Both the position numbers and the translations under genes were made by a program. From assembly GCF_014696925.1 (NCBI RefSeq), contig NZ_JACJQY010000052.1:1-36095 (forward strand): 36,095 bases of DNA. The letters run 5' to 3'. Within the stretch, counting starts at the first letter, position 1. Each line of letters begins with the position of its first letter. The notes under the pieces were generated by a model. It ran no database searches. It saw only the letters and a program-made list of their open reading frames with translations, and was not told the origin of the DNA. Below, piece after piece: positions 1-36,095 of the stretch. The stretch is from Phormidium tenue FACHB-1050. Lineage in GTDB: Bacteria; Cyanobacteriota; Cyanobacteriia; Pseudanabaenales; Pseudanabaenaceae.

Positions 1-101
1 CGACATTAATTTGTTAACAATAAGAAGATATCTGTATACTTCTAGTATTATTAATAACGACACTAATTTGTTAACGGCGACAAGTAATGTGTTACTCGAC
101 A
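1..101 (+). repeat. CAST right-end copy at the window start (terminal duplication)
   Basis: These 101 bases are identical to 35995-36095. They hold three TnsB-box-like units beginning CGACA (about 1, 58 and 78) and finish with TGTTACTCGACA, the reverse complement of the left-end start TGTCGAGTAACA at 29815. The transposon body would lie to the left, so bases from 102 on are flanking DNA. The simplest reading is an overlap of a circular contig. The overlap stops exactly at the element boundary, which could also mean a second right end in the genome. Confidence 0.85.
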
Positions 102-447
102 GGTTTAGTAAAAATTTTCCTCAAAATGTCAAATAGTTTTGAGCATAAAAGCTTGGAAAAAAGATTTTAAAAATCTCCTAAATTTAAATCTCACATTTTC
201 TGACAGGCTAAACTTGATAGAGTTTAGCTTTTGATTCAAGCTATCTTCAACCAAGGCATTAGTAATTTGGCTTTGAGCATTGCCAATAGCGATCGCGCTT
301 TTCTCTCGTGACCAACTAACCAACTTTTTCTTTCCAAATTTTGAGATCGGAGCAAGTATTGTTATCTATAGAATGGCGATCGCATTGCTGCTAACAATCT
401 CTACATTGTAGAAAGGCTTCTATGTCACGTTAAGAGGGTTAAAAAGA
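102..447. other. Non-coding flank of the transposon right end, with a rep-gene scrap
   Basis: No credible gene is seen. A short reverse-strand open frame at 129-323 exists only because 251-301 is a near-identical copy of 983-1033 in the 3' part of the rep gene, read here in a different frame. The rest is AT-rich. The five bases after the right end (GGTTT) do not match the five before the left end (TCATT at 29810-29814). Confidence 0.6.
251..301 (-). pseudogene. 51-bp fragment duplicated from the 3' part of the rep/primase gene
   Basis: About 49 of 51 bases match 983-1033, inside the C-terminal coding part of the primase-like gene at 896-2632. The homology ends abruptly on both sides, so this is a scrap left by duplication or deletion and not an expressed gene. 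It lies 150 bp from the transposon right end, which suggests past rearrangement here. Confidence 0.7.
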
Positions 448-2632: not shown

Positions 2633-2637
2633 TTTTT

Positions 2638-2976: not shown

Positions 2977-3032
2977 TTTGAAGGGATACATTTTATCTGT
3001 GATCCTCCTTTGGATAAAAAACCTCAGAATAA

Positions 3033-20157: not shown

Positions 20158-20173
20158 AAAGATCGCCTAGGTC

Positions 20174-20234
20174 AAAAAAAACGGGTAGAGGGCAAAAGGG
20201 CTAGAGGGTAAAGGGTTAGGACTGGTCTGTGGGG
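20174..20234 (-). repeat. Conserved pyrimidine-rich 3' tract after VR-B
   Basis: The same tract as after VR-C, nearly identical across about 60 bp and including the region around the stop codon. It lies between FGE gene B and FGE gene C. Confidence 0.7.
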
Positions 20235-21052
20235 GGCTGAAGAGTCGCTGGAGCTGAACATGACACGCGAAATCCCAGATAATTGAAACGATCAACGGGA
20301 TCGTCGATGTAGCGGAACGCAGAGCGGCAACCCCTAGGATTGGAGTCCCAAGAACCGCCGCGTATGACACGATTAGCTTCTGAGTTATCTGTCAGCCAAG
20401 CACTGCCATCTTCAGGTGCGCCTTCATAATTATCCTGCCAATGGTCTTGACACCATTCATATACATTGCCATGCATGTCGCATAGCCCCCAAGCATTAGC
20501 AATATCAAAATGGTCTACAAGAGTTGTCTCGTTACGATATTCGCATTTGACACCATTAGCGTAGGTGTAATTGCCATCGTAATTTGCTAACTCTGTGGAA
20601 ATGGTATTTCCAAAATAAAAGGGTGTGGTGGTTCCCGCGCGACAGGCATATTCCCACTCGGATTCGGTGGGCAAGCGATAGGAGCGTTTAGTTTTCTTGG
20701 CTAGGCGATCGCAATATTCTTGAGCTTCATACCAAGACACCTGCTCGACAGGATGCATAGCTCCTTTAAATCTTGATGGATCGGGATTGAGTTCGATATT
20801 CACCTGCTTGTAAGTTTCAGCAACGATGCGCCATTGCTCCTGTGTGACGGGATAGCGTCCTAGAAAGAATGATTTGACAGTTACAGGATGTTGTGGACTT
20901 TCATCATCACTACGATCTTCCTCAGTGTCTGGCGAACCCATCAAGAAGTCACCGCCATGAACCAAGATCATGTCTAACTCGATCTCATTACCCAGCTTTT
21001 CGCGGAAATACTGGGCGGTTCTCTGCTCTTTTTGAATGGTTAAGGTCGCCAT
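20216..21052 (-). CDS. FGE-sulfatase fold protein B, DGR target
   Basis: 278 aa with the same FGE/SUMF1 architecture as its downstream paralogue: HGGDFLMGSPDTEEDRSDDE, FLGRYPVTQEQWR, YRLPTESEWEYACRAGTTTP, CDMHGNVYEWCQDHW, RVIRGGSWDS. Its 3' end is variable repeat VR-B (20247-20361). The N-terminus starts MATLTIQKEQRTAQYFREKL, similar to the MPTVTIHRHQATNQFYDEKL of protein C, so the two are recent paralogues. It follows the TR by about 170 bp on the same strand. The likely role is diversified binding or effector-recognition partner for the vWA/MoxR system encoded upstream; this is inferred. Confidence 0.9.
   Translation of the reverse strand: MATLTIQKEQRTAQYFREKLGNEIELDMILVHGGDFLMGSPDTEEDRSDDESPQHPVTVKSFFLGRYPVTQEQWRIVAETYKQVNIELNPDPSRFKGAMHPVEQVSWYEAQEYCDRLAKKTKRSYRLPTESEWEYACRAGTTTPFYFGNTISTELANYDGNYTYANGVKCEYRNETTLVDHFDIANAWGLCDMHGNVYEWCQDHWQDNYEGAPEDGSAWLTDNSEANRVIRGGSWDSNPRGCRSAFRYIDDPVDRFNYLGFRVSCSAPATLQPPTDQS
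20247..20361 (-). repeat. DGR variable repeat VR-B
   Basis: 115 bp, gap-free against the TR. I count 14 differences, all at template adenines (for example AAC to TCC, AAT to GGT, TAC to TTC, AAC to TTC). Confidence 0.95.
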
Positions 21053-21076
21053 TGTAAAACCATGTCTATGGTGAGT

Positions 21077-21122
21077 GGGTCAGCAAATTCTTCAGTCTAG
21101 GACTTACCAAGCTCGCTGACCC
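21077..21122. repeat. Inverted repeat downstream of the TR
   Basis: GGGTCAGC (21077-21084) and GCTGACCC (21115-21122) form a perfect 8-bp stem with a 30-base loop, followed on the plus strand by GTTTGTTTTTT. It lies between the TR and FGE gene B. It could structure the 3' part of a TR-containing RNA, or act as a plus-strand terminator. Confidence 0.45.
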
Positions 21123-21221
21123 GTTTGTTTTTTGGATGCTTACACATCGCTGGAACAGATCTGGACTCTTCAATATATACGCCCGATAGATTCACATCTA
21201 CCAGTTCTGACATAAAAGAGT

Positions 21222-21336
21222 GCTGGAGCTGAACATGACACGCGAAATCCCAGATTATTGTTACGATCATCGGGATTGTTGTTGTTGCGGTACGCAGAGC
21301 GGCAATTCCTAGGATTGTTGTTCCAAGAACCGCCGC
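21222..21336 (-). ncRNA. DGR template repeat (TR)
   Basis: A 115-bp non-coding repeat, 45 bp downstream of the reverse transcriptase stop on the same strand. In coding sense it carries runs of AAC/AAT codons (AACAACAAT after TTCTTGG, then AACAACAACAAT and AACAATAAT), the adenine-rich signature of a DGR template. All three variable repeats (VR-A, VR-B, VR-C) differ from it only at these adenines, apart from one terminal base in VR-A. It is expected to be transcribed, copied by the error-prone reverse transcriptase with Avd, and the cDNA moved into the VRs. Confidence 0.95.
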
Positions 21337-21381
21337 TTTGGGGTCTGTCCCATTAACTTTATAGCAGTTGTCTTACAGTTT

Positions 21382-22458
21382 TTAAGATTCGGTCGTGTCG
21401 TTGGCGCGATCGAATCCCTCAAATACATTCGCTTTTTGTCGCAATCGATAGGTATCGCCATGCTTGAGATGAGCTTCCCAACTGCTGATACGTTTGCGGA
21501 TGTCAATCAGCGAAATTTGCCCTTTGCCATAGGCTAGGCGGAGCCGTTTAAATCGTTTACGTGCGCGACGGAGATTGTCGTTACGAATGCGGATACGATC
21601 GCCTAAAACTCGAAACCCAACAAAGTTGGCTCCATACTTGGTTTCAAACAGTTGGCTTTTAATCGGATGCATTTTGAGGCGTAAGGTGGCTAAATAGTCA
21701 GCGATCGCTAATTTTGCATCACTCAATTCTTGATAGTCATCGCTAAACAGTGCAAAGTCATCCACAAAGCGCAAATATTTGGATACTCTCAGCCGATCTT
21801 TAACAAAATGGTCTAGTCCGCTTAGGTAATAGTTGGCAAAAAATTGACTGGTCAAATTGCCAATCGGTAAGCCTTTTAGTCGTTCTAATGGAGTCAGTAA
21901 GGTATCTTCTGGGAAATAATCGAGGACAAATTCTTGCTGATTGCTGCGATCAATAATTAGGTCAATTAGCCATAGGGTGCGATCGCATTTGATTTTACGC
22001 CGAATCAATGTCTTGAGGATTTCGCGATCGATGCTAGGGAAGTACTTTTTGATATCGCATTGCAAAATATAACGACTGCTCCGCGCATATTCGGTAAAGC
22101 GTCGTAGGGCGCGATGGGTTCCATAGCCTTTACGATTGGCATAGGTTTCCGCAATCAGACTTCGCTCTATTAGTGGCTGAATGATATTACAGAGCGCATG
22201 GTGAACTACGCGATCGCGGTAGGGTGCTGCCGAAATTAAACGAACTTTTGGATCGCTAATTTTGAACATGCGGTATTTTGATGGGCAGTAGCTTTGACTT
22301 TTGAGTTCTTCTTGTAGTTTCTGTAGTTCTAGTTCGCGATTGTAGTTAAACTCCAATACATTGTCGCGAAATCGCTTTCCTTTTTGTGCCTTTTGCGCCG
22401 CCAACAACAAGTTACCAAAATCTACAATCTCATCCCATAAATTCCCATAACGTTTCAT
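21382..22458 (-). CDS. DGR reverse transcriptase
   Basis: A 358-aa group II intron-like reverse transcriptase. Visible motifs: [11 protein letters not shown] (134-144, catalytic Asp), the DGR-type motif 4 [14 protein letters not shown] (GNLTSQ at 200-205) and the catalytic FVDD box at 231-234 ([11 protein letters not shown]). It lacks maturase and endonuclease domains, as DGR enzymes do. It overlaps the avd gene by 4 bp and is followed by the template repeat, so it belongs to the cassette. It copies TR RNA with misincorporation at adenines. The length is typical of the family (about 300-400 aa). Confidence 0.95.
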
Positions 22459-22805
22459 GGGTTGATTTTGCTGCGTTGTTGTTGCTTAATCCATCCGCCT
22501 AAATCTACCCCGATGCCATTGATTAACTTGCCCGCATATTCATAGCGATCGCTTTCTATCAAACCAAAGTCCAGCAGTAACCTTGTCTGATGCCGCAGAA
22601 CGTCTAGGCGACTGTTCATCGGTTCTAATAGTGGCAGTTTCTCACGTTGATAGCGCACAAAAATCAAGTTTTCCAAAAGGTCGTATAGTCCGCTAATCAT
22701 GCGATCGCCTAGTTGAAATTTATGATCTCTGGGTAAGCGATTGAGTATCGGCACGTACCACTTGATGAGGTCGTAGGTTTTTTGAATGATTGGGAGATCT
22801 TGCAT
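22455..22805 (-). CDS. avd: Avd-type DGR accessory variability determinant (four-helix bundle)
   Basis: 116 aa, all-helical and basic ([20 protein letters not shown], then [20 protein letters not shown], and a third and fourth helix ending [14 protein letters not shown]). This matches the S23/Avd-like four-helix-bundle family that binds the DGR reverse transcriptase and template RNA as a pentamer. It overlaps the RT start by 4 bp and lies 108 bp after the vWA-FGE gene. Both Avd and RT are needed for mutagenic homing in studied DGRs. Confidence 0.9.
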
Positions 22806-22868
22806 TTAGTAAGGTTTAGCATAAATTGCAGGAAATGCGATCGCGCAGAGCGCGAAAACCTCGCAGTC

Positions 22869-22910
22869 AAAAAAAACGGGTAAAGGGCAAAAGGGCTAGA
22901 GGGTAAAGGG
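22869..22910 (-). repeat. Conserved pyrimidine-rich 3' tract after VR-A
   Basis: The same tract as after VR-B and VR-C over about 42 bp; here the segment nearer the VR has diverged. Between the VR-A end and the tract there is a small hairpin, ACTCTTC/GAAGAGT, on the minus strand, resembling the post-VR hairpins that assist DGR homing in Bordetella phage. Confidence 0.65.
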
Positions 22911-22913
22911 CAA

Positions 22914-25571
22914 TCACTCTTCTGTGAGGGCTTGAAGAGTCTCTGGAGCTGAACATGACACGCGAAATCCCAGACTATAGTTACGACCATCGGGACTGCC
23001 GTCGTCGCGGTACGCAGAGCGGCAATTCCAAGGAAGGTAGAGCCAAGAACCGCCGCGTATGACACGTCCAGTCGTTTCTGAGTTATCTGTTAGCCAAGCA
23101 CCACCATCTTCAGGAGCGTCTTCATAGTTGCTATGCCAATGGTCTTGACACCACTCTAAAACATTGCCATGCATATCAGATAGTCCCCAAGCATTTGCAA
23201 CGTCAAAATGCTCGACAGGCGTTGTTTCACCTATTTTCTCGCCCGTCGGACTATCAGCATAGGAAACCGTGCAATCATAATTAGCCAATTCAGGCGAAAT
23301 AGTTTCACCAAAATGAAATGGTGTGGTCGTTCCTGCGCGACAGGCATATTCCCACTCGGCTTCCGTTGGTAATCGATATTGATGCTTTGTATATATGCTC
23401 AGCCGCGCACAAAACTCGATCGCATCCTCCCATGACACTTGCTCTACAGGGCGATCATCACCCTTAAAGTTTGATGGGTCAGGATCAAGTTCGCTCTCTA
23501 CTTGAGGCATCGCCGCCACTACTCGCCATTGCGCCTGTGTGACAGGATATCGCCCCATATAAAAATCTGGCACTGTCACTAAATGCTGTGGACTTTCATC
23601 CTCATAGCGCTCTAATTCATCCTCAGGAGAACCCATCATAAATTCCCCACCAGCGATGCTGACCATCTCTAGCACCACATTTTCGTCAATCTGCTCCACA
23701 TAGCGATAGGCTAGCCTTTCAGATTTCTGCACTATCCAGTCATTACCTAACTTGACAATAGAACCCACCTTAAAACTAAATAGCGCTAACTCAACACCAG
23801 AATCAGTTGTATTCTCATCATCAATGGTAATAGTAGCCACCGTATATTCTTCAGTCTGAAGAGGTGGATACCAAGTTTCCGTTTCTGCCTCCACCAGTCG
23901 CGCCGTCATGAAAGTCAGCCACTCTAATTCAGGGAAATCAATATCTTGCTCGGTATCTACAGGTGGACGATCTGGAGGGCGCGAGTAAGACTCTTCGATT
24001 TGTCTAACAAAATCGCGATACTTACCACCCTTACGCTTCAAAACTGCCGCAGTTACAAGCGCAAACGGACGAGCCTTTTCCACCAATTCGCGATTGGAGC
24101 TCTGACTCCAAACCATTAAATCTGCCAAAAATTCATCCAGCGATTTGTCAAACTGGCGTTCTATATACTTCGATAGCACTTTCACTGTATCAGGAACTGG
24201 AGTTTCAGCTAGCAACAGTTGACGCAGTTCCTCATCAACAAAGGCATACTCTAGCTCATTAGGATTACAGTCAGCCTTGGGTAATTCAATGGGCTTTAAT
24301 AAGCCTCCCAACAACACTTCCGCAACATTCATCTGTCGAGAAGCAGATAACATGGTTTCTTGAATTAAGCGGATCACAGGCAAGGTAATCACAGGCGAGG
24401 CAGCCAATAAACACATCAAACGCTGAGCGATCGGCGAAGACATAACCTCAAACTGTTCAACTTGCTGTTTAGGACTCAAAGCATCTTGCGACTCTGCATC
24501 GGTTTGAGCCACGATCGCACGGACAAGATAGCCCGACGACTCACAATGTCCCATAACCATCTGACTCCAATTCAAGATGACATCAGCATTCAATGGCACA
24601 ATTGGAACCAAAGCCGCAGATACAGACTTTGGCACAGACTGATAGGTATCATTCCATTTTGCGTTCAACCGTATATTAGGCAGTCCTGCATCAGTAGAAG
24701 ATAAGGTTAGAGGCGCATAGCTACGAATAGCAGTCCTAGTCCACATCCATTCAGGCAATACCTGTATAACCGCAACAGGACTAGATCGCGACCAAAGTTT
24801 TAATAGCTTTACTATTTGCTCACTTTGCCAATACTCCGCCACACAATCAGAAATCACCAAAATCAACTGCCGCCCACTCGGATCGACCAACAATTCAGGT
24901 TTACGAGAAGATCGATGCAGATGTTTTGCCCCCAATCCCGATCGCAACTTAAATTGTCGATCTTCCCAATGCAGTCCCCAGAGATGCACATCCCGAAATG
25001 TTCCATAATTTCGCAACAGCTTCCGAAATTCCAACACCGTCTGTCGCCAGATCAGCATAGACTCACTCTCATCCACCACCAAAACCAAATCTAGCCAAGG
25101 CTCTAAGACTGGCTTAATAATTGGTTGCCAGACAAATGCTTCAGCAATTTGTTGAGCCGTAGCTTGCTCATCTAAGCTATCAACTAACTCCGATGGCACT
25201 AACCTCATTAGAGGACGTAGCGATCGCACTAAAGCCAAAGGATCGCGAATCGAAGGTGGATTGCTCACCTTAATCGGTTGACGATCCATCAAAGCATCTG
25301 AAGCCGAGCGTCGGGGCAAAAGCCCCGCAACTTTTCCTGAATTATGAGCCTCTAAATTAGCAGGAGCTGGTGATGATGATGCAGGTTGCGATCGGGTATG
25401 CACATCATCCAAAACTATTTCGCTTTGATTAGGAGATCTCCTTGTCTGTGACTTCGTCTTAGAAGTAGTCTTACCCTGTTGCCGCATTACGCTCAGCCAA
25501 ATAATATCCGCCAATTCCTCAGCAGTTAAATCTAGCTGTTCGCCAAGTTTAGCAATCAGGAGATCGATCAT
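22914..25571 (-). CDS. vWA-FGE fusion protein, conflict-system component and DGR target
   Basis: An 885-aa multidomain protein. A short N-terminal segment (MIDLLIAKLGEQLDLTAEEL) and a low-complexity linker are followed by a von Willebrand A-like domain whose MIDAS motif is DESES (167-171), in the context LDLVLVVDESESM. A long helical middle region of the type called SAV_2336-related in other bacteria comes next. From about residue 635 to the end lies an FGE-sulfatase domain (GGEFMMGSPEDEL, YRLPTEAEWEYACRAGTTTP, DMHGNVLEWCQDHW, RVIRGGSW). Its 3' end is variable repeat VR-A. It overlaps the MoxR ATPase gene by 4 bp; MoxR-vWA pairs act as ATP-driven remodelling complexes. It is probably the scaffold that couples diversified recognition to the ATPase. 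Confidence 0.9.
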   Translation of the reverse strand: MIDLLIAKLGEQLDLTAEELADIIWLSVMRQQGKTTSKTKSQTRRSPNQSEIVLDDVHTRSQPASSSPAPANLEAHNSGKVAGLLPRRSASDALMDRQPIKVSNPPSIRDPLALVRSLRPLMRLVPSELVDSLDEQATAQQIAEAFVWQPIIKPVLEPWLDLVLVVDESESMLIWRQTVLEFRKLLRNYGTFRDVHLWGLHWEDRQFKLRSGLGAKHLHRSSRKPELLVDPSGRQLILVISDCVAEYWQSEQIVKLLKLWSRSSPVAVIQVLPEWMWTRTAIRSYAPLTLSSTDAGLPNIRLNAKWNDTYQSVPKSVSAALVPIVPLNADVILNWSQMVMGHCESSGYLVRAIVAQTDAESQDALSPKQQVEQFEVMSSPIAQRLMCLLAASPVITLPVIRLIQETMLSASRQMNVAEVLLGGLLKPIELPKADCNPNELEYAFVDEELRQLLLAETPVPDTVKVLSKYIERQFDKSLDEFLADLMVWSQSSNRELVEKARPFALVTAAVLKRKGGKYRDFVRQIEESYSRPPDRPPVDTEQDIDFPELEWLTFMTARLVEAETETWYPPLQTEEYTVATITIDDENTTDSGVELALFSFKVGSIVKLGNDWIVQKSERLAYRYVEQIDENVVLEMVSIAGGEFMMGSPEDELERYEDESPQHLVTVPDFYMGRYPVTQAQWRVVAAMPQVESELDPDPSNFKGDDRPVEQVSWEDAIEFCARLSIYTKHQYRLPTEAEWEYACRAGTTTPFHFGETISPELANYDCTVSYADSPTGEKIGETTPVEHFDVANAWGLSDMHGNVLEWCQDHWHSNYEDAPEDGGAWLTDNSETTGRVIRGGSWLYLPWNCRSAYRDDGSPDGRNYSLGFRVSCSAPETLQALTEE
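22942..23056 (-). repeat. DGR variable repeat VR-A
   Basis: 115 bp, gap-free against the TR. I count 14 differences, all at template adenines (for example AAC to CTC, AAT to CTT, AGG to TGG, AAC to GGC), plus one difference at the extreme 3' boundary base (22942). Confidence 0.95.
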
Positions 25572-26692
25572 TGCCCCGTTCCCATATTAGTGAGAGAACT
25601 GAATAGCAAAGCTTTGATTTTCTCCTGATCGGCATCCTGTGTCAGTAAATAAAGGGTATTGAGCAACTGATCGGTTGCCAGATTTCCCTCTTCCTCTTCA
25701 TTCCGTTCTTGAAATGCGGTAATCACTTTCTCAAATTGTTTGGCTAAATCTTCCCCCAAATGAGATTTCACAATATTAACTAGTGCATCATCCTTGGGTG
25801 ATGGCATGACAATCCTTACACAACGTCGCAAGAAAGCTGAAGGAAATTCGCGTTCTCCGTTACTAGTCATAACGACTATAGGGAAAGCATCACACTGCAC
25901 TTGTCCATCATGAATCTCAACATCCAAGCCATCTTCAGATTCTACAGTTTGAGCTTTACTCCCACGCTTCGCCAGCCGCCGCAATTCTGATATTTCATAT
26001 CCCCCTTCTTCCAAAAGATTTAGTAAGTCATTGGGCAAATTAATATCGCTCTTATCGATTTCATCAATCAGCAACACTCGCGGACGATGCGATGGCAAAA
26101 ATGCTGTCCCTACAGGTCCCAGACGAATATATTTTCCGATATCCTGATAGTCTGGTGCAGTAATATTTATTGCCTCCTGTGCTTCTCCAGCTAACGACTT
26201 TGATTGCTTTGCTTGACTGAGTTGAGCATCCTGTAGTCGAGCGATCGCATCATATTGATACTCTCCTTGCTGGAGATTTGATCTGGCAGTCACTGACCAA
26301 ACTAACACTGGTCCTAACTTAAGTTCATAGGCGATCGCATAAGCCAACGAAGTTTTGCCCGATCCAGGTTTACCCGTAACTAGCAAAGGTCTTCGCAGAT
26401 AAATAGCCGCATTAACCGCATCAATAATATTAGGGATAGCCGAGCTATCAGGCTCTTGATCGCCTTCAGACTGAATTGGCGGAACTCGAAAGCTTTTTCC
26501 ACGCTCAATATCACGTAACTTAGTCTGAGCAAGATTATGCAACTTTGTCCAGTAAGACTTATCTGTTTTAGCGTTAACGCTAGTTTTTTGATTAACAAAC
26601 TGCCGCCATTGAGGAGGAGCAATATCACGAAGGCGATCTATGCCATTATGCGGAGCTTGTTCTCCATGAAATATAGTCCAATCTTGAGTCAT
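25568..26692 (-). CDS. MoxR-type AAA+ ATPase
   Basis: A 374-aa AAA+ ATPase: Walker A GKPGSGKT (107-114), Walker B VLLIDE (205-210) followed by DKSDINLPNDLLNLLEEG, sensor 1 in VVMTSNGERE, and an arginine-finger region FLRRCVR. This is the MoxR/CoxD-like group, which partners vWA proteins. The gene overlaps its neighbours by 4 bp on both sides (EAD1-VMAP-like protein upstream, vWA-FGE protein downstream), so the three are translationally coupled. The expected role is ATP-dependent switching or remodelling in an NTP-driven conflict system as described for VMAP ternary systems. The trigger is unknown. Confidence 0.92.
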   Translation of the reverse strand: MTQDWTIFHGEQAPHNGIDRLRDIAPPQWRQFVNQKTSVNAKTDKSYWTKLHNLAQTKLRDIERGKSFRVPPIQSEGDQEPDSSAIPNIIDAVNAAIYLRRPLLVTGKPGSGKTSLAYAIAYELKLGPVLVWSVTARSNLQQGEYQYDAIARLQDAQLSQAKQSKSLAGEAQEAINITAPDYQDIGKYIRLGPVGTAFLPSHRPRVLLIDEIDKSDINLPNDLLNLLEEGGYEISELRRLAKRGSKAQTVESEDGLDVEIHDGQVQCDAFPIVVMTSNGEREFPSAFLRRCVRIVMPSPKDDALVNIVKSHLGEDLAKQFEKVITAFQERNEEEEGNLATDQLLNTLYLLTQDADQEKIKALLFSSLTNMGTGQ

Positions 26693-28275
26693 GACGCTTT
26701 TGCTCCTCCTGTTTGTAATGCATTCATTAGTGGCATCCTCTCTGGGTCATCCCATATCAAAGTCAGATGCCGCAACCATCGTTTTTCTGGTGTACCACTG
26801 TGGTCAAGTGCATATGCCCGACTTGACCGCACGGTTTCTAAAAGCCTACAGCGATCGCGTAACAAATTGATTTGCAAAAACTCTTCTTCCATTTCGGCTA
26901 TTACTGCATCTGGCGACGGCTCATTATTTCGCGGTAAAAATATGATGGGAATACCAGATTTTAAAATTGTCAGCAGCAACTGATACATTTGTTTTTGGCA
27001 GGTAGGCAGTGAGCAATTACTTTTAACACCCATACAATTTCTGAGCCTTTCCTGAAACGCCATCAATTTAACATTATTTACATCATTTAAAGATTGGATT
27101 AGATCTTGTAAATTTGCTTCAGGATTTAATTCTAATATCTGCCTAGACTGTTTCCACGATCCATAAAACTCATTCCAGAGATCTGTATGGTCAATTATTG
27201 ATCTACTACAGCGATCATACGAACGTATTACTAAAGGATATTTAGTCGCGAGATACTGATGATCACCAAATATCTTCTCGCGATCAATAGGCTCACAAAG
27301 CAATTTAATAGGTAGGAACAATTCAACAAATAACTTATAGTCATCACAACCAAGTAATTTATTTCCGTTTTCCAAACGCTCTTGCAAAATTTTTAAACTT
27401 TTTTGTATAAGCTCTGATAGCTTCTTAGGCAACTGCTTTTTAGTAGACAATATACCTTTTTCTTTTGAAGATAGATCCAAATCTACTGGCATTCTCTGTA
27501 TTTCTCCTGTTGGAGCCACACAAAGTAAACTAGCAATTACCCTAAACTTAGGTCGTTCATGATTTTCATCTACAGTAATCATCAAATGAGCTTTTAATTC
27601 TCTATCACTTAATTTTTCAATTGCTATAGTAGATTCCCGAAGTTTCTGAGGTATAAAACTAGCATCAACTTCCTGCAACCAAGTTTCTAAAGCTAGACTA
27701 ATCTCACTAGTCAGGAATGTTTCCTGTAGAAGCTTCTGAACAAAGACAACAATACTGGGGCAATCGGATAAGATTGGATAATCCTCTAAAAAAAGCCTTA
27801 GAAATATAAAACACTTAAACCAATTTGATAACTCAGAATTTTCCAGATACTCAATTTTATTAGAACAGTGACATTCAATATTATTTGGCAAAACAGCTTT
27901 ACCAATTATCCAAATTTTATTAAAATCAACAATTTTTTCAAGAATATTAATTAAACAAATTAATGCGTCACTAGATAATATATTAGTGTCATATTCAATT
28001 AAATCAGCTATTTTAATTTCAACAAATTCTTTAATCTTTTCACTATCAGATCTTTCTCCAGCAATACCAATCACTAACTTTTGAAATACTGAAACTCCCC
28101 GACTTTCAACTAAGGTAATTAAGCTACTAATTTTTGCATCATATGTTCCGCCTTCTATATCTTCACTCCAGCGTAAATCAAGCTCTTCACGCAAGAACCT
28201 TTTCAATTCACTTTCTTGAAATGCATCTTTTAATGCTAGTCGAAGTTTTTTAACTTCTGCCCCACTTAGTTCCAT
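26689..28275 (-). CDS. EAD1-containing VMAP-like protein
   Basis: 528 aa. Residues 1-85 (MELSGAEVKKLRLALKDAFQ, then LREELDLRW and SLITLVESRG) form an effector-associated domain of the EAD1 type, also present at the start of the trypsin-like protein 0.5 kb upstream (MELSGDQFKKLRIALQSAYP). The rest is a large alpha/beta region with MITVDENHERPKFRVIASLL and a C-terminal GIPIIFLPRN. Position and size correspond to the 'vWA-MoxR-associated protein' component of ternary conflict systems. It overlaps the ATPase gene by 4 bp. Shared EAD1 domains are thought to bring effector and core together by homotypic contact. The assignment to VMAP is by context and partial recognition. Confidence 0.75.
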   Translation of the reverse strand: MELSGAEVKKLRLALKDAFQESELKRFLREELDLRWSEDIEGGTYDAKISSLITLVESRGVSVFQKLVIGIAGERSDSEKIKEFVEIKIADLIEYDTNILSSDALICLINILEKIVDFNKIWIIGKAVLPNNIECHCSNKIEYLENSELSNWFKCFIFLRLFLEDYPILSDCPSIVVFVQKLLQETFLTSEISLALETWLQEVDASFIPQKLRESTIAIEKLSDRELKAHLMITVDENHERPKFRVIASLLCVAPTGEIQRMPVDLDLSSKEKGILSTKKQLPKKLSELIQKSLKILQERLENGNKLLGCDDYKLFVELFLPIKLLCEPIDREKIFGDHQYLATKYPLVIRSYDRCSRSIIDHTDLWNEFYGSWKQSRQILELNPEANLQDLIQSLNDVNNVKLMAFQERLRNCMGVKSNCSLPTCQKQMYQLLLTILKSGIPIIFLPRNNEPSPDAVIAEMEEEFLQINLLRDRCRLLETVRSSRAYALDHSGTPEKRWLRHLTLIWDDPERMPLMNALQTGGAKAS

Positions 28276-28741: not shown

Positions 28742-29743
28742 CTAAACTAGCTTTGATGCAATCTGCGGATAAATTTTGCTAAACAAAATTCCCTCACATA
28801 CAATACCAAAGGTAGTTGCACGTTCAGCATGATGTAAAGCTACTAACTGCCATTGATCATTAAAACATGGAGAGCCGCTAGACCCATTTGATGTTTTGCT
28901 AATGTATTGAATTAATCCTTTTTCTTTATATACACCCGTAACACCATTTGTGCCAAAGGCAACCTTCATTGATTCACCATCAGGGTGTTGGACAATGTGA
29001 ATGCTGCCTCCTTTCGGTGGTGAATCAGTATCATAGCTAACGGGACGAATAGTAGTAGCTTGCAAAATCCTTGATTCCACTCGAAGCAACACGTAGTCTA
29101 ATTCATCGGTATAACTAAAACCAACGATCGGATCGTCAGCTAATTGAAAGATCTGCTCATGTTTTTCAATCCCTGTCAACGCACCAAATACTAAACGTAG
29201 TCGTGAAGCATTTAGTCCAGCATCCTCATAAACATGATAATTAGTCAGTAGTAAGTCTTGCTTAACTAAGACCCCAGTACCGATCGCTTTTCTATTTTCA
29301 ATTTCAATCCGACAAACTGAAGCAGCTCGGTCTACTCCATATTTGAGAAATGCCATATCCCATATTTCGGGCTTTGAACGCCAAAAACTTTGAAGTTCGA
29401 GATCCTCAGTAGGTCCGAGCCATTCAAAATTTAGTCTAGAGGGAATAACAGGATTAGACTTCGACTCAACAGGAATCATCCCAAACGATGCAACGAAATT
29501 AAGTAGACTAGGATTACCAGAATTTCCTTTGATAGCTGCACTTACTAAATCTGGGATCTTGCCCTTAGACTCAGCCCAAGAAACTAACTCAGCAACTGTT
29601 TCTGTTAAGTTACTACCTCCCACCACATCATCCAGTCGTACATTCATTTCCTCGCGTAACAAGATCTCTAACTTTGCTTTCTTAGGATAGGCGCTTTGCA
29701 AAGCAATCCGCAATTTTTTAAACTGATCACCTGATAGTTCCAT
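28742..29743 (-). CDS. EAD1-trypsin-like serine protease
   Basis: 333 aa. Residues 1-85 are an EAD1 effector-associated domain. Residues about 140-333 form a trypsin-like (S1/S7-type) protease with a visible triad: H170 in LLTNYHVYEDAG, D216 in TDELDYVLLRV and S291 in NGSSGSPCF. There is no signal peptide, so it acts in the cytoplasm. It is the first gene of the minus-strand island; EAD-linked trypsin proteins are a recurrent effector or signal-transmitting component of VMAP systems, where proteolysis is thought to activate or execute the response. Its upstream region is interrupted by the CAST left end 72 bp away, so the native promoter may be displaced. Confidence 0.9.
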   Translation of the reverse strand: MELSGDQFKKLRIALQSAYPKKAKLEILLREEMNVRLDDVVGGSNLTETVAELVSWAESKGKIPDLVSAAIKGNSGNPSLLNFVASFGMIPVESKSNPVIPSRLNFEWLGPTEDLELQSFWRSKPEIWDMAFLKYGVDRAASVCRIEIENRKAIGTGVLVKQDLLLTNYHVYEDAGLNASRLRLVFGALTGIEKHEQIFQLADDPIVGFSYTDELDYVLLRVESRILQATTIRPVSYDTDSPPKGGSIHIVQHPDGESMKVAFGTNGVTGVYKEKGLIQYISKTSNGSSGSPCFNDQWQLVALHHAERATTFGIVCEGILFSKIYPQIASKLV

Positions 29744-29814
29744 AACTTGTTACCCCATAAGGTAAGAACGATATTTACATAAGTTTGGAAGCAAATTTAT
29801 AAAAGAGGGTCATT
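29744..29814. other. Short leader between the conflict operon and the transposon left end
   Basis: 71 bp that must hold the leader, and possibly the promoter core, of the conflict operon. On the minus strand TATAAAT (around 29796-29802) is a possible -10 box, for which the -35 would lie inside the transposon end. Bases 29775-29811 are the second copy of the 37-bp repeat found at 14572-14608. Confidence 0.45.
29775..29811. repeat. 37-bp repeat, copy B (next to the CAST left end)
   Basis: 31/37 identity to 14572-14608; the 20 bases at 29792-29811 are identical. It ends 3 bp before the transposon terminus. Confidence 0.7.
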
Positions 29815-30045
29815 TGTCGAGTAACACTTTATTTGTCGTCTTAACAAGTTTATGTCATCGCGATCGCATATAGCTGCATTGCTTTAAAATACGCACATTT
29901 TTGCATACAGAATTGACTAAATATACTTCACAATACCTCAAAATATTTAACAAATTAGATGACGTTTCTTAAATTAATAGCACTTTAGCTGTCGTTTCTT
30001 TGTCAAAACCAGATCTATTTTGTTAACACATTAACTGTCGTTCCT
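29815..30045 (+). other. CAST left end with TnsB-binding boxes
   Basis: The terminal inverted repeat TGTCGAGTAACA is followed by repeated TGTCG/TGACG-type boxes at about 29834, 29853, 29960, 29990 and 30036 (for example TGTCGTTTCTTTG and TGTCGTTCCTTTG). Multiple such sites of about 20 bp are the known TnsB contacts of V-K elements. The tnsB promoter must also lie here, so TnsB could autoregulate. Confidence 0.85.
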
Positions 30046-30088
30046 TTGATTGGTGTATAGTAATATTGCATTTTTCAGTATTTAGACG

Positions 30089-31747
30089 ATGACAAACGAT
30101 GACGAAACACTGAAGCCAAACAGGATCGTATCTGAGATCTCTAAAGAAGGTCAGCTAAAAATGGAAGTGATCCAGTTTTTAGCAGAACCATGCGATCGCA
30201 AAACCTATTCAGAAAGATTACGAGAAGCAGCCAAACGACTAGATTGTTCATTACGCACTGTTCAAAGGCTGACTAAGAAGTGGGAAGAAGATGGTCTATC
30301 AGCTTTTACATCTGAAGGTAGGGCAGATAAGGGGCAACACCGTACCGATCAAACCTGGACAGAGTTCATTATCACAACCTATAAAGAGGGCAATAAAAAC
30401 AGTAAGCGGATAACTCCTGCCCAAGTTGCCATGAAAGTTAAAGTTAGAGCGCATAAACTAGGTTTAGAAACCTTTCCCAGCCACATGACGGTTTACCGCA
30501 TTTTGAATCCTTTGATTGAGAGTCAAGAAAATTCTAAGAAGGCTAGAAGCATTGGCTGGAAAGGTTCAAGGCTTTCCTTAAAAACGAAAGATGGGCAGTC
30601 CTTATCTGTTGAATATAGCAATCAAGTTTGGCAGTGTGACCATACTCTAGCGGATATTTTATTAGTTGATCATCATGGAGAACTAGTCGGTCGCCCTTGG
30701 TTAACGACTGTAATTGATAGCTACTCACGATGTATTATCGGTATCAATTTGGGGTTTGATGCACCGAGTTCGCAAGTCGTCGCTTTGGCTTTACGTCATG
30801 CAATGTTGCCCAAGGTCTATAGTGCCGACTATAAACTCAATTGCAAATGGGGAACCGAGGGGAAACCAGACTATCTGTTTACAGATAATGGTAAAGATTT
30901 CCGATCTAATCACGCTCAGCAAATTGCCACCCAGTTAGGTTTTGTCTGGCATTATCGAGATCGCCCATCAGAAGGTGGCATTGTCGAACGCCCATTTGGC
31001 ACTTTTAATACACAGTTTTTCTCAACTTTGCTAGGTTACACGGGTTCAAATGTGCAGAAACGTCCAGAAAACGCCGAAAAGAACGCGAGTCTGACTCTGC
31101 TAGAGCTAGAAATACGGCTTGTAAGATACATTGTCGATCACTACAACCAATCCATTGATGCAAGGATGAGTAATCAAACACGATTTCAACGGTGGGAGTC
31201 AGGGTTAATAGCTACGCCAAACCTTTTGTCCGAGAGAGAGTTAGATATTTGTTTGATGAAACAAACTCGCCGCAAAATATATCGCGGTGGCTATGTGCAA
31301 TTTGAGAACTTAACCTATCGAGGTGAAAACTTATCTGGTTATGCAGGGGAAAGTGTGATTTTGCGATACGACCCCAGAGACATTACAACTGTTTTTGTTT
31401 ATCACCTAGAAGGAAGTAAGGATGTTTTTTTAGCTCGTGCATTTGCTCAAAATCTAGAAGCTGAGAGGATTGGATTGGATGAGGTTAAAGCAAGCAGTCG
31501 TAGGCTGCGTCAAAAGGGAAAGACCTTAAATAATCGCTCAATTCTAGAGGAGGTAAGCGATCGCCAAATATTTGAAGATCGCAAACGAAGTCGCAAACAA
31601 GTCAAGAAAAATGAGCAGGCATTGATATCCACACAACCAGCATCTGTCCTGTCTGAGACGGTTGAGGAAACAGTGTTGGAGTCTCCCTTATTTAGGGAAC
31701 GACCCAAATATGATTTAGCCCAACTTCGCAATGATTATGGATGGTAA
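30089..31747 (+). CDS. tnsB: TnsB transposase (DDE/rve family)
   Basis: A 552-aa Mu/Tn7-like integrase of the V-K CAST type. An N-terminal HTH region (LREAAKRLDCSLRTVQRLTK) binds the ends. The rve catalytic core has D184 (WQCDHTLAD), D266 (LFTDNGKDF) and E300 (SEGGIVERPFG), with the D-35-E-like spacing of 34. A mu-C-like beta-barrel (ENLTYRGENLSGYAGE) and a C-terminal tail ending SPLFRERPKYDLAQLRNDYG follow; this tail contacts TnsC in characterised systems. It is the first gene after the left end and is followed 3 bp later by tnsC. All catalytic residues are present, so it should be active for strand transfer. The length matches V-K homologues (about 580 aa). Confidence 0.96.
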   Translation: MTNDDETLKPNRIVSEISKEGQLKMEVIQFLAEPCDRKTYSERLREAAKRLDCSLRTVQRLTKKWEEDGLSAFTSEGRADKGQHRTDQTWTEFIITTYKEGNKNSKRITPAQVAMKVKVRAHKLGLETFPSHMTVYRILNPLIESQENSKKARSIGWKGSRLSLKTKDGQSLSVEYSNQVWQCDHTLADILLVDHHGELVGRPWLTTVIDSYSRCIIGINLGFDAPSSQVVALALRHAMLPKVYSADYKLNCKWGTEGKPDYLFTDNGKDFRSNHAQQIATQLGFVWHYRDRPSEGGIVERPFGTFNTQFFSTLLGYTGSNVQKRPENAEKNASLTLLELEIRLVRYIVDHYNQSIDARMSNQTRFQRWESGLIATPNLLSERELDICLMKQTRRKIYRGGYVQFENLTYRGENLSGYAGESVILRYDPRDITTVFVYHLEGSKDVFLARAFAQNLEAERIGLDEVKASSRRLRQKGKTLNNRSILEEVSDRQIFEDRKRSRKQVKKNEQALISTQPASVLSETVEETVLESPLFRERPKYDLAQLRNDYGW

Positions 31748-31750
31748 ACT

Positions 31751-32581
31751 ATGTCTCAAGCAACAGAAATTGCCGAGCAGTTAGGACAAATCAAGCAAGA
31801 GAACCCATATTTACAGAAAGAGATCGCGCGGCTGAATCGTGAAGATTTTATAGAACTCGAACAAGTGGAGCTTGTGCATAATTGGCTAGAGAGTAAGCTC
31901 AAGTCTGGTCAGCCCTGCCGTATTGTCGGTGAGTCTCGGACAGGTAAGACTATTGCCTGCGATTCCTACCGACTTAGACATAAACCGATACAAGAGCATG
32001 GCAAACCTCCAATAGTGCCTGTCATTTACATTCATCCGCCGACAGAATGTGGGTCACGAGAACTTTTTAGGACGATCATCGAGGATTTGAGATATCAGAT
32101 ACCCAAAGGGACTATTGCAGATCTACGAGATCGCACCTATAAGGTTTTGAAGAGTTGCAATGTAGAGATGTTGATTATTGACGAAGCAGATCGGCTTAAG
32201 CCTAAAACTTTTGCCGATGTGCGCGATTTTTCTGACAGGTTGAAGATTTCTGTGGTCTTGGTTGGCACAGATCGTTTGGATGCGTTAATTAAGCGTGATG
32301 AACAGGTCTATAACCGCTTTCGGGCTTGTTATCAATTTAAACTTTTGACAGGGGAGCAGCTTCGGCAAACGGTAGAAATTTGGGAGCGGCAAGTACTGTG
32401 TTTACCTGTTGCCTCCAACTTAACCAGCAACGAAATGCTCAATATTTTGCAAAAAGCCACACGAGGCTACATTGGCTTGCTAGATATGGTGTTGCGTACA
32501 GCGGCTATTCGCTCTTTACAGAAAGGGTTGACAAGAATTGACAAAGCTACGCTGCAAGAAGTGACAGAGGAATTTAGGTAA
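31751..32581 (+). CDS. tnsC: TnsC AAA+ regulator of transposition
   Basis: A 276-aa AAA+ ATPase: Walker A GESRTGKT (60-67), Walker B LIIDEAD (141-147). It has the small size of V-K TnsC proteins, which form helical filaments on target DNA and bridge Cas12k/TniQ to TnsB. A TAATG overlap with tniQ indicates translational coupling. The open frame is intact, with no deviation at key residues. Confidence 0.96.
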   Translation: MSQATEIAEQLGQIKQENPYLQKEIARLNREDFIELEQVELVHNWLESKLKSGQPCRIVGESRTGKTIACDSYRLRHKPIQEHGKPPIVPVIYIHPPTECGSRELFRTIIEDLRYQIPKGTIADLRDRTYKVLKSCNVEMLIIDEADRLKPKTFADVRDFSDRLKISVVLVGTDRLDALIKRDEQVYNRFRACYQFKLLTGEQLRQTVEIWERQVLCLPVASNLTSNEMLNILQKATRGYIGLLDMVLRTAAIRSLQKGLTRIDKATLQEVTEEFR

Positions 32582-33078
32582 TGCAGACTATTCAACCTTG
32601 GTTCTTTCAGATTGAGCCTTATGAGGGTGAGAGCATTAGCCATTTTTTAGGACGGATTCGCCGTGAGAACTATTTAACTTCAAGTGGCTTAGGTAAATTG
32701 ACAGGACTTGGTGGTGCGATCGCGCGATGGGAAAAGTTTCGCTTTAATCCTCCTCCTAGTGCTAAAGACTTAGAAGCTTTGGCTCTGGTAGTGGCTGTAA
32801 GTGCCGATAGGTTATTCCAAATGCTACCGCCTGAAGACATAGCAATCAAGCTTGAGCCGATTCGGATCTGTTGTGCTTGCTATGCTGAGCAACCTTGTCA
32901 TCGGATGGAATGGCAATATAAAACGACTGATCGTTGTACTCGTCATGGGGTGACTTTGCTATCTCAATGTCCAAAATGTCATGCAAGGTTTAAGATTCCT
33001 TCACTATGGATTGAAGGGCGTTGCCATCGTTGCTTTACGAGTTTTGCAGACATGCAGCCTAACCAAAAGTTGTTATGA
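32581..33078 (+). CDS. tniQ: TniQ, short V-K type
   Basis: 165 aa, the short form of TniQ found in type V-K elements. An N-terminal segment, WFFQIEPYEGESISHFLGRI, is typical of TniQ, followed by a small HTH and two zinc-binding clusters: C97/C98/C100, C106/H107, C119/H122, then C130/C133 and C148/C151. It caps the TnsC filament and joins it to the Cas12k-tracrRNA complex. It is separated from cas12k by only 62 bp, with no cargo between. Confidence 0.95.
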   Translation: MQTIQPWFFQIEPYEGESISHFLGRIRRENYLTSSGLGKLTGLGGAIARWEKFRFNPPPSAKDLEALALVVAVSADRLFQMLPPEDIAIKLEPIRICCACYAEQPCHRMEWQYKTTDRCTRHGVTLLSQCPKCHARFKIPSLWIEGRCHRCFTSFADMQPNQKLL

Positions 33079-33140
33079 CGAGCATTGGCTAGACTGCCCA
33101 ATCACTACATCTATAAAAAACAATTTATTACTATAGTTGC

Positions 33141-34988
33141 ATGAGTCAGATCACGGTCCAATGTCGCCTCATCGCCAATGAATCTACCCGTCAAATACTT
33201 TGGGAGTTGATGGCAGAGCGCAACACGCCTTTGATTAACGAACTCTTACAAAGGATTGCACAGCATCCTGACTTTCTGACATGGCGGCAAAAAGGGGGAT
33301 TACCTAATGCTATTGTCGGAGATCTCTGTAAATCTCTCAAGACTGAACCTCGCTTTAGTGGTCAACCTGCAAGGTTTTATCTTTCGGCTAAGCAACTTGT
33401 AGAGGATATTTTTAAGTCTTGGCTTACGCTCAAAAAAAAGCAACAACGCAAGCTTGAGCGTAAGCTCCGTTGGTTGGAGATTCTCAAAAGTGATGTAGAA
33501 CTGCAAAAGCTTGGTAATTGCGATTTAGCGTCGATTCGTAGTCAAGCTAGTATCGTCCTCAGTCAAGTACAAGCTAGCGATCGCCTAGATGATTTCAATG
33601 TGGTTAATTGCCTGTTTGCCCTATATCGAGATAGTAAAGAAGTTTTGACTAGGGTCGCGATCACGTACTTACTCAAAAATGGCGGCAAAGTTAGCCAGAA
33701 AGAAGAAAATCCCGAACATTTTGCTAAGCGTCAACGCAAAGTCCAAATCACTGTAAAACGGCTTATTGAACAGATAGAAAGTAGTTTACCGAAAGGAAGA
33801 GATTTAACGGGGCAAACATGGCTAGAAACCTTACTAATTGCGGCAACTACTGTACCCAAAGATGAAGTCGAAGCAAGGAGTTGGCAGGACAATCTACTGA
33901 AGCATCCAAGTTATCTTCCATTTCCTATTACGATCAAGTCTAATGAGGTGATGACTTGGGAAAAGAACGCGCAGGGTCGTCTATACGTTCGTTTCTGTGG
34001 TTTGGGGAAGCATAGATTTGCGGTTTATTGTGACAATCGACAGCTCCATTGGTTTAAACGTTTTTTTGATGACCAAACAACGAAAAAACAAAGCAAAGAT
34101 GCTCATTCCAGTGGTCTGTTTACTTTGCGCTCTGGATGTATTGCATGGCAACTAGGCGATGGTAAGGGGGAGCCTTGGAATGTTAACCATTTGTATCTTC
34201 ACTGCACTGTGGATACAAATCTGTGGACGGATGAAGGAACGGCAAATGTACGTCAGGAGAAAGCGGCTGAGACAACAAAAGATTTGGCTATTATGAAAGA
34301 GAAAGAGACCTTGTCTAAGGATCAAGAGATCTATGTTAAACGTCTACAATCTACACTCAATCGCATTAACAATCCTTTTCCTAGACCGAGTAAGCCTCTA
34401 TACGAAGGTCAAGCCCATATTCTCCTTGGTGTCAGTATGGGCTTGGAGCATCCTGCTACGGTTGCGGTGGTTGATGTGATTAATGGTAAAGCGATCGCCT
34501 ATCGTAGTATCCGTCAATTGTTAGGTGAGAATTATGGGTTACTCAATCGCCAAAGATTTCAGAAACGACAGAACGCTCATGATCGCTACAAAGCTCAGAA
34601 GCAGTTTGCCGATAATCAATTTGGTGAATCTGAGTTAGGGCAGTATATTGATCGTTTAATCGCGAAAGCGATTATTGCGGTTGCTAGAGAATACCGTGCT
34701 AGTAGTATCGTCATTCCTGAGTTAGATGATATGCGAGAGTCTGTACAAGCGGAAGTTCAGGCGATCGCTGAACTAAAAATTGTTAATGTTGTGGAAGCTC
34801 AGAAGAATTATTCTAAGAAATGTAGTGTCAATGTCCATAATTGGAGCTATGGGAGGTTGATTGAATGCATTAAGTCTCAAGCGGCGAAGTTAAAGATTGC
34901 GATTGAGCAGTGTAAACAACCTCATAAGGGTAGTCCGCAGGAAAAAGCTAGGGATTTGGCTGTTAATGCTTATCTAGCTAGGAAATAA
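33141..34988 (+). CDS. cas12k: Cas12k, nuclease-inactive RNA-guided target selector
   Basis: 615 aa, close to the roughly 640 aa of studied Cas12k proteins. It starts MSQITVQCRLIANESTRQIL, the canonical family opening, and ends GSPQEKARDLAVNAYLARK, so it is complete. The RuvC I site reads GVSMG (430-434), with Ser432 where nucleases carry Asp; the RuvC II region is VIPELDDMRE (E527) and RuvC III lies near ARDLAVNAY. Loss of the first acidic residue fits the family's lack of DNA cleavage. It binds a tracrRNA-crRNA pair and a GTN-type PAM target (family knowledge), then recruits TniQ, TnsC and TnsB. No regulator gene such as a MerR-type cvkR is seen beside it. Confidence 0.96.
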   Translation: MSQITVQCRLIANESTRQILWELMAERNTPLINELLQRIAQHPDFLTWRQKGGLPNAIVGDLCKSLKTEPRFSGQPARFYLSAKQLVEDIFKSWLTLKKKQQRKLERKLRWLEILKSDVELQKLGNCDLASIRSQASIVLSQVQASDRLDDFNVVNCLFALYRDSKEVLTRVAITYLLKNGGKVSQKEENPEHFAKRQRKVQITVKRLIEQIESSLPKGRDLTGQTWLETLLIAATTVPKDEVEARSWQDNLLKHPSYLPFPITIKSNEVMTWEKNAQGRLYVRFCGLGKHRFAVYCDNRQLHWFKRFFDDQTTKKQSKDAHSSGLFTLRSGCIAWQLGDGKGEPWNVNHLYLHCTVDTNLWTDEGTANVRQEKAAETTKDLAIMKEKETLSKDQEIYVKRLQSTLNRINNPFPRPSKPLYEGQAHILLGVSMGLEHPATVAVVDVINGKAIAYRSIRQLLGENYGLLNRQRFQKRQNAHDRYKAQKQFADNQFGESELGQYIDRLIAKAIIAVAREYRASSIVIPELDDMRESVQAEVQAIAELKIVNVVEAQKNYSKKCSVNVHNWSYGRLIECIKSQAAKLKIAIEQCKQPHKGSPQEKARDLAVNAYLARK

Positions 34989-35044
34989 TTTTTAATAAGA
35001 TTTGCGGAATCTTGACAATTAGAGAATTTTTTTGCATAGTTTTT
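34989..35044. other. Spacer between cas12k and tracrRNA
   Basis: A short AT-rich stretch that would hold the tracrRNA promoter (TTGACA-like TTGACAATT at 35013, with TTTTTTATAG near 35040 as a possible -10). No gene is seen. Confidence 0.4.
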
Positions 35045-35275
35045 TATAGCGCCGTAGTTCATGGTTGTTTTCAATCCTCTGTGCTACGCAAGTATGGGTT
35101 AGTTTGACTGTTAGTTAAGGCGGTCTTGCTTTCTGACCCTTGTGGCTACTCGCTCTGATGCTGCCGTTGCAAGACGGGAATAAGGTGCGCTCCCAGCAAT
35201 AAGGGTATAGATTTACTTACTTTAAGTAGTGGCTACTGAATCACCTCCGAGCAAGGAGGAACCCTCTTTTTTTAC
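35045..35275 (+). ncRNA. CAST tracrRNA
   Basis: Resembles known V-K tracrRNAs block by block: TATAGCGCCG start, GGGTTAGTTTGACTGT, CTTGCTTTCTGACCC, GGTGCGCTCCCAGCAATAAG, GTAGTGGCTACTGAATCACC, then GGAGGAACCCTC. AACCCTC (35260-35266) is the anti-repeat that pairs with GAGGGTT of the CRISPR repeat. The ends are estimated; the T7 tract at 35267-35273 may be the terminator. Confidence 0.85.
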
Positions 35276-35463
35276 GCGAACCTCAAGCAAGGTCTAATTT
35301 CCTGACAGGTTCGCGCAATGTCTGAAATGTTTGTCAGTAAATAATTTCGATTTTATATTTGCTGGTAAGTATTTCTTAATGTTGTTTCTGGTATGAGTTA
35401 ATAAATAGGTTCGCACTTTGTTTGTTTAAATGCTTTACATAGCAAGGCTTTTAAGTAATCAGG
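35276..35463. other. Leader between tracrRNA and CRISPR array
   Basis: About 190 bp, AT-rich, no gene seen. The last 60 bases before the first repeat would be the array leader. GAACCTC and CAGGTTCGCG near 35280-35316 form a partial inverted repeat (GCGAACCT/AGGTTCGC). Confidence 0.4.
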
Positions 35464-35865
35464 GTTGCAATCTCTCTTCTAGAAATATGAGGGTTGAAAG
35501 GTGGGACAGTCCTCTATCACGACTTTCTTGATAAACGTTGCAATCTCTCTTCTAGAAATATGAGGGTTGAAAGCCACAACAACGCCCATCTCTCTATCGT
35601 TGTCACGTTGCAATCTCTCTTCTAGAAATATGAGGGTTGAAAGCATTGCATATAATCAGTAGGCATGTATACATTTCCTGTGTTGCAATCTCTCTTCTAG
35701 AAATATGAGGGTTGAAAGAATGTGTTGATTCTTAGGTGATCGCCGAATGTAGATTGTTGCAATCTCTCTTCCAGAAATATGAGGGTTAAAAGGGTTGATA
35801 AACTACATGATCAAGATTCATGCCAGTGTTGCGATCTCTCTTCCAGAAATATGTGGGTTGTAAAG
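35464..35865 (+). CRISPR. V-K CRISPR array, six repeats
   Basis: A 37-bp repeat running GTTGCAATCTCTCTTC...GGGTTGAAAG, starting at 35464, 35537, 35607, 35682, 35756 and 35828. Spacers are 36, 33, 38, 37 and 35 bp. Repeats 1-4 are identical. Repeat 5 has two changes (TTCC, TTAAAAG). Repeat 6 has several and an extra base (GCGATC, GTGGGTTGTAAAG), the usual decay at the distal end. The orientation matches the tracrRNA anti-repeat. By eye none of the spacers matches other DNA in this window. Confidence 0.95.
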
Positions 35866-35994
35866 TACATCTCTGTCTTAGCTAAAGGTATAAGAATACA
35901 AAGTTATGATCGCTATTTTAAGAACGAGTAGGCTGAAATTCTTTGATTATCCCTCAGCCCCGAAACCATTAGGAAGGCGATCGCAATAGTTCGA
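35866..35994. other. Region between array and right end; possible terminal guide
   Basis: After the degenerate sixth repeat comes TACATCTCTGTCTTAGCTAA, which could act as a sixth spacer. A further repeat-like scrap, GGCTGAAAT, lies at about 35932. V-K elements often carry a delocalised homing guide here. I found no match to either candidate beside the left or right end in this window. No gene is seen. Confidence 0.4.
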
Positions 35995-36095
35995 CGACAT
36001 TAATTTGTTAACAATAAGAAGATATCTGTATACTTCTAGTATTATTAATAACGACACTAATTTGTTAACGGCGACAAGTAATGTGTTACTCGACA
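35995..36095 (+). other. CAST right end with TnsB-binding boxes
   Basis: Three boxes starting CGACA (about 35995, 36052 and 36072), each followed by an AATTTGTTAAC or AAGTAATGTGTTAC-like segment, end in TGTTACTCGACA at 36095. The compact layout of fewer boxes than the left end is typical. The sequence is identical to 1-101. Confidence 0.9.

Follow-up and report, generated by a model that had tools for sequence, protein, structure and literature searches.

A cargo-free, intact-looking type V-K CRISPR-associated transposon, probably on a Pseudanabaena plasmid

Introduction

Type V-K transposons associated with clustered regularly interspaced short palindromic repeats (CRISPR-associated transposons, CASTs) are known from cyanobacteria through ShCAST and its relatives, and they are described as cargo-bearing. 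The introduction of PMC9938897 states that all V-K systems contain cargo genes, section 6 of that paper places most of the cargo between cas12k and tniQ, and a passage of PMC8649781 gives cargo in 96% of 6,549 Tn7-like elements. A passage of PMC11406308 describes the cyanobacterial Tn7-like element Tn5469 as free of cargo genes and equipped with a single TniQ. Here we report on a 36,095-nt stretch of Phormidium tenue FACHB-1050 (contig NZ_JACJQY010000052.1, called the window below), which carries a 6,281-bp type V-K CAST at 29815-36095. Judged from its sequence, the element is likely to be a complete and probably functional minimal V-K CAST, most likely residing on a circular Pseudanabaena plasmid of about 36.0 kb.

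Like ShCAST and other cyanobacterial V-K CASTs, the element has the same four proteins in the same order, a trans-activating CRISPR RNA (tracrRNA) region, 37-nt repeats and related ends. Unlike them, it has no cargo (62 bp separate tniQ from cas12k), no CvkR or Arc motif and no neighbouring tRNA, is probably plasmid-borne and is not bordered by a matching duplication. With Tn5469, compared by the published description only, it shares the lack of cargo and the single TniQ. This cargo-free, intact-looking V-K CAST without a recognised repressor is a variant of the known V-K elements. Searches of open-access papers, supplements aside, turned up no published cargo-free V-K element; the supplementary lists of PMC9938897, which cover 118 systems, may include this or other such elements.

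Gene content and ends of the element

The following features make up the element.

29815..36095, plus strand: whole type V-K CAST, 6,281 bp, defined by terminal inverted repeats and gene content
29815..30088, plus strand: tnsB-side end (standard right end, RE), with the terminal inverted repeat at 29815-29838 and further repeats at 30020-30040
30089..31747, plus strand: tnsB, DDE transposase, 552 amino acids, with D184/D266/E300 and a Mu-transpos_C match
31751..32581, plus strand: tnsC, AAA+ regulator, 276 amino acids, with Walker A and B motifs and a TniB/AAA match
32581..33078, plus strand: tniQ, 165 amino acids, with a TniQ profile match and C/H motifs
33079..33140, plus strand: the 62 bp separating tniQ from cas12k, a place that in relatives holds cargo and usually also a repressor gene
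33141..34988, plus strand: cas12k, 615 amino acids, with an NF038191 match
35046..35270, plus strand: tracrRNA region, with blastn matches in 85 of 100 other Cas12k loci
35464..35864, plus strand: CRISPR array with six repeats of 37 nt, the sixth degenerate, separated by five spacers (33-38 nt)
35928..35956, plus strand: weak candidate for a truncated repeat (R*) with a 17-nt anchor spacer, 8 of 12 repeat-end bases matching
35995..36095, plus strand: array-side end (standard left end, LE), with the terminal inverted repeat at 36072-36095

In the inventory of open reading frames (ORFs), tnsB, tnsC, tniQ and cas12k are the only non-overlapping genes within 29815-36095. They are co-directional and are followed by the tracrRNA region, the array and the second end; four further ORFs of at least 60 amino acids are all nested in the four genes in other frames. 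The inventory of the element contains no tnsA, no search aimed at TnsA having been made, and no Rfam family reached its gathering score in the window. An earlier note on this DNA had claimed that the element carries no cargo, which is borne out by the inventory, by the 62-bp gap and by the comparison with other loci below. The same note placed V-K cargo frequently between the core and one end, which disagrees with the usual place given in section 6 of PMC9938897, and its left and right labels were swapped relative to the naming in that paper, where LE is the array-side end and RE the tnsB-side end.

Alignments to the solved proteins of ShCAST cover most of each of the four proteins: residues 6-551 of 552 of TnsB, 1-276 (full length) of TnsC, 4-163 of 165 of TniQ, and 1-145 and 155-613 of 615 of Cas12k (E 6.6e-228). 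Cas12k scored 873.6 bits against NF038191, for which the cut-off is 150. TnsB matched the rve profile below threshold in addition to Mu-transpos_C, and its D184/D266/E300 triad falls on ShCAST chain residues 205/287/321 in ungapped alignment blocks. The triad and both Walker motifs were present as previously claimed, and the claimed TniQ zinc clusters were seen as C/H motifs only. The terminal inverted repeat spans 24 nt, with 92% pairing between 29815-29838 and 36072-36095, and the final ~50 bp are shared with array-side ends in other V-K loci, in several cases to the last base (examples are L137, L128, L132, L036, L147 and L116).

The locus thus has what defines a type V-K CAST: Cas12k, the tnsB/tnsC/tniQ order, a downstream tracrRNA region and array (at the level of sequence) and paired V-K ends. 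Four traits that are usual in V-K elements and do not define them were not found, namely a 5-bp duplication, a tRNA-matching anchor, cargo between tniQ and cas12k, and a CvkR or Arc gene.

Compactness among Cas12k loci

Other Cas12k loci were collected in two partly overlapping sets. The first came from a pattern-based scan of one genome per species across 84,980 species and comprises the best 80 of 134 Cas12k relatives; the second comprises 20 places from 18 genomes, drawn from a search in which 42 of 386 genomes gave a Cas12k match, fragments included. A viral contig with Cas12k had 644 bp of upstream sequence and was excluded. At least 2.9 kb of upstream sequence was available for 66 of the 80 loci in the first set, and none of these had tniQ inside that span, the closest lying 2,980 bp away; among the remaining 14, tniQ was visible in L137 only, 151 bp from cas12k. 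The closest tniQ in the second set lies 3,267 bp from cas12k. Across both sets tniQ was seen upstream in 28 of 100 loci, at a distance of at least 2.98 kb in 27 of the 28, versus 62 bp here; in the other 72 it is farther off, missing or too diverged for tblastn. Flanks of at most 1.5 kb were available for a further collection of 29 loci, largely the same places, and none had a tns gene beside cas12k. Among loci where tniQ is seen, the window holds the only intact one without cargo between tniQ and cas12k.

The earlier note had proposed comparing length and gene content with other elements, and on both counts the element stands out. Both ends could be paired in six of the 27 loci with tnsB in view (window included), at no more than two mismatches in 16, giving lengths of 6,281 (window), 9,609, 10,399, 11,068, 17,819 and 21,787 bp; four pairs with at least five mismatches and 17 loci without a pair were left out. 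The window's element is therefore the smallest of the six delimited elements, the next being 9.6 kb long.

L137 (Leptolyngbya sp. ULC077bin1, QBMH01000300.1) is the nearest in layout, with 151 bp between tniQ and cas12k and no repressor motif in the 1.9 kb upstream. It differs from the window in being broken: where tnsC should start, an IS1-family element stands instead, with its transposase gene in reverse orientation at 1-526, and the contig ends inside it. It also differs in adjoining a tRNA-Pro gene at its array-side end, matched by a 17-nt anchor spacer (protospacer-adjacent motif GTA, 67 nt from the end and beyond it), and in having a Cas12k that belongs to another supported clade. Since the window's Cas12k has no resolved neighbour in the tree and that of L137 groups with its own kin in a supported clade, the compact layout may have arisen twice, the placement of the window's long branch being unsure. 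The locus of Pseudanabaena frigida ULC066bin1 (L095, G389:C67) belongs to the same genus set and its Cas12k is 55% identical; it differs in that tnsB, tnsC and tniQ are all missing from the 16.8 kb upstream of cas12k, which has a MerR-type gene as its neighbour.

Repressor genes

Repressors were scored by a motif test over partly redundant loci, 92 of which (window included) had enough upstream sequence. A CvkR-like MerR gene stands next to cas12k in 47 and an Arc-like gene in 17, leaving 28 with neither; up to 2.5 kb upstream, MerR motifs were found in six more of these and Arc motifs in two more. The window is one of the 20 loci left without a repressor motif, neither CvkR nor Arc motifs occurring within 2.5 kb upstream of its cas12k; some of the 20 have other small genes there. 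As a passage of PMC9938897 gives regulators in 86 of 118 systems, the absence of a repressor is unusual and not unique. The CvkR operator had no match in the window at up to one mismatch, with 1.7 expected by chance. A cas12k promoter in common with P. frigida, considered as a trace of a cargo-bearing ancestor, found no support: equally high scores came from 314 of 2,000 shuffles, and control stretches reached them in 6 of 250 cases.

Array and targeting

A promoter-like site at 35012-35040 is weak, 15 such sites having been found versus 12.3 expected. The R*/anchor candidate at 35928-35956 was rejected because, by our own estimate, its 8 of 12 matches to the repeat end are not above chance. 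Its 17-mer has one match with a single mismatch, on contig C25 of the same genome, in a context read as non-tRNA without a tRNA scan. Read by eye, a sequence containing CCCTCAGCCCCGAAA or the complement of it recurs in Pseudanabaena plasmids, at L211 ~10740-10780 and L209 ~255-285; it forms a palindrome in one place and overlaps the candidate anchor spacer of the window.

No convincing protospacer was found in the flanks, the genome, the genus, or phage or plasmid records. The 17-mers of 35866-36095 had no match at up to four mismatches in the 200-nt array-side flank, and phage records gave none. Candidates elsewhere were rejected: the best match in the genome outside the array had E 0.19 (query 35462-35935); plasmid records yielded the pPg_02 relic described below and seven Burkholderia records at E 0.1 only; the 26 genomes of the genus, the window's own included, yielded array-end relics, a 70% match to the P. 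frigida array and one 27-bp match at E 0.001; and the first 17 nt of each spacer matched the backbone of the element's own plasmid with four or five mismatches at best. There is also no tRNA gene in the window. RNA-guided arrival at the present site is thus no more than possible, and insertion there independent of a guide is possible as well.

Relics of a similar array end lie in two related genomes in which no Cas12k was found. The array end at 35831-35970 (140 bp) is 86% identical to a stretch of plasmid pPg_02 of P. galeata CCNP1313 (G390:C3, 215760-215898), and the whole or part of it recurs at 2493-2588 and 4483-4623 of G394:C186 (78% and 82%). These relics, which include the region of the degenerate repeat and last spacer, suggest that related V-K arrays passed through this Pseudanabaena group earlier.

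Contig closure and host plasmid

The contig begins with a copy of the array-side end and continues into the flank on that side.

1..101, plus strand: same sequence as 35995-36095, most likely through assembly overlap and no second copy
102..250, no strand: array-side flank, resembling element-free Pseudanabaena plasmid sequence from base 102
29742..29814, no strand: tnsB-side flank, paralogous to 14539-14608 and unlike the relatives' sequence across the junction

We compared 42 contig tips from 21 of the 89 contigs, namely the element's own contig (C48) and 20 of the other 88. In 26 pairs the tips share 101-104 bases, as is characteristic of an assembly graph with k=101. C48 is the sole contig compared whose end overlaps its own start. 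Positions 1-101 are therefore less likely to be a real second element than a k-mer overlap, and the contig probably forms a 35,994-bp circle. That it is cut exactly at the end of the element may reflect forking of the reads at that point, which is only a lead because the assembly contains no second flank. Searched with an exact 12-base pattern, the genome yields a single tnsB-side end and two array-side ends, the latter at the tips of this contig; ten further matches with one mismatch are at control level.

A plasmid location is suggested by ParA, by a weak Prim-Pol match (22.3 bits versus a Pfam cut-off of 22.8) and by relatives of the contig. The genomes of the same genus set are Pseudanabaena and include pPg_02; positions 251-3128, around the Prim-Pol gene, are 94-95% identical to pPg_02 and to G394:C115. 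Cas12k is rare on recorded plasmids, with a match in two of 72,556 records, one of them over at least 80% of its length.

Flanks and movement

Immediately outside the element, the first five bases read GGTTT on the array side and TCATT on the tnsB side. The array-side flank aligns to pPg_02 and to G394:C115 from position 393 (against C115 the score is 74.5 over 80 nt, and the best of 200 shuffles reached 50.5), whereas the tnsB-side flank scored 35.0 against the C115 sequence across the junction, a level equalled by 122 of 200 shuffles. On the tnsB side, 29742-29811 and 14539-14608 form a 70-bp paralogous stretch (77%), one copy of which ends 3 bp before the element. Flanking homology stops cleanly at both element ends, and a 2,954-bp stretch of pPg_02 spanning the missing part matches the genome on C48 only (40 of 113 candidates scored).

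Intramolecular replicative transposition that deletes adjacent DNA, and recombination between two copies, would both leave unmatched flanks. The flanks here fit replicative, TnsA-less movement with adjacent deletion or an exchange between copies; misassembly is a further possible source. According to a passage of PMC11406308, ShCAST forms cointegrates in E. coli and V-K elements lack TnsA. By homology to ShCAST, Cas12k with tracrRNA and CRISPR RNA would bind the target, TniQ and a TnsC filament would then recruit TnsB, and TnsB would join both ends to the target, yielding a cointegrate. A cargo block and a cas12k-linked repressor would have been lost or never present, and replicative moves in the plasmid lineage may have included an intramolecular event deleting the tnsB-side DNA or a two-copy exchange. 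We also entertain the rather unlikely idea that the host plasmid is itself the cargo: cointegration would insert all 36 kb of it between two element copies at a site chosen by RNA, intramolecular events would reshape or split the plasmid, and the unmatched flanks would be the scar.

Alternative explanations

The earlier note's suggestion of a naturally streamlined active element holds as regards intactness (domains, active sites and ends), and activity of the cargo-free element is plausible. If active, it would be a naturally occurring V-K system of 6.3 kb that has neither cargo nor repressor, and as such a compact tool and a clean test of what a V-K element requires. It may represent a minimal form, arisen in nature, of a system that serves in genome engineering. 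Several observations weigh against a complete, functional element on a circular plasmid. Its Cas12k branch is the longest end branch in the tree (0.62), with no resolved neighbour; a search for other copies, also proposed earlier, found none elsewhere in the genome; and the circle is deduced from contig ends, not reads. The lack of a convincing protospacer counts on the same side and, with the absence of tRNA genes from the window and of a matching duplication at the flanks, speaks against full function in particular.

These last points favour a deletion derivative in decay, which would have lost its cargo, repressor and homing guide and no longer move. The degenerate last repeat, the breakage of the other compact locus, L137, by an IS1-family element, and the survival of a similar array end only as relics in two related genomes agree with it as well. 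We regard decay as doubtful, as none of the four proteins is disrupted, their active sites are conserved, and the tracrRNA region and both ends are present.

An assembly artefact, in which two or more copies were merged into one and given flanks from separate copies, would leave the element real and make the mismatched duplications and the circle unreal. A contig break exactly at an element end is rarely expected from a random cut of a circle, and the sampled contigs of this assembly do break at shared sequence. However, neither end occurs on any other contig, the self-overlap of C48 is the only end-to-start overlap among the 42 tips, and flank homology ends cleanly on both sides, which makes an artefact quite unlikely. 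That 36095 is an internal or solo end of a larger element with cargo beyond it, as the end of the contig there could suggest and the earlier note had allowed for, is very improbable and was excluded, because this terminus pairs with 29815-29838, its last ~50 bp are a V-K terminus conserved in other loci, the sequence that follows in the circle resembles from 102 the relatives' plasmids without an element there, and the exact 12-base pattern finds no further inverted end of the same type in the genome.

Neighbouring genes

Besides the element and ParA, the window encodes an integrase and the type I restriction-modification subunits R, S and M. Positions 19342-25571 hold a reverse transcriptase gene (21382-22458, minus strand), a bAvd gene (22455-22805, minus strand) and three FGE-sulfatase proteins, an ensemble that resembles a plasmid-borne diversity-generating retroelement. 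Adjoining the tnsB-side end are an EAD1-trypsin gene (28742-29743, minus strand) and an EAD1-VMAP-C gene (26689-28275, minus strand), possibly a conflict or defence module.

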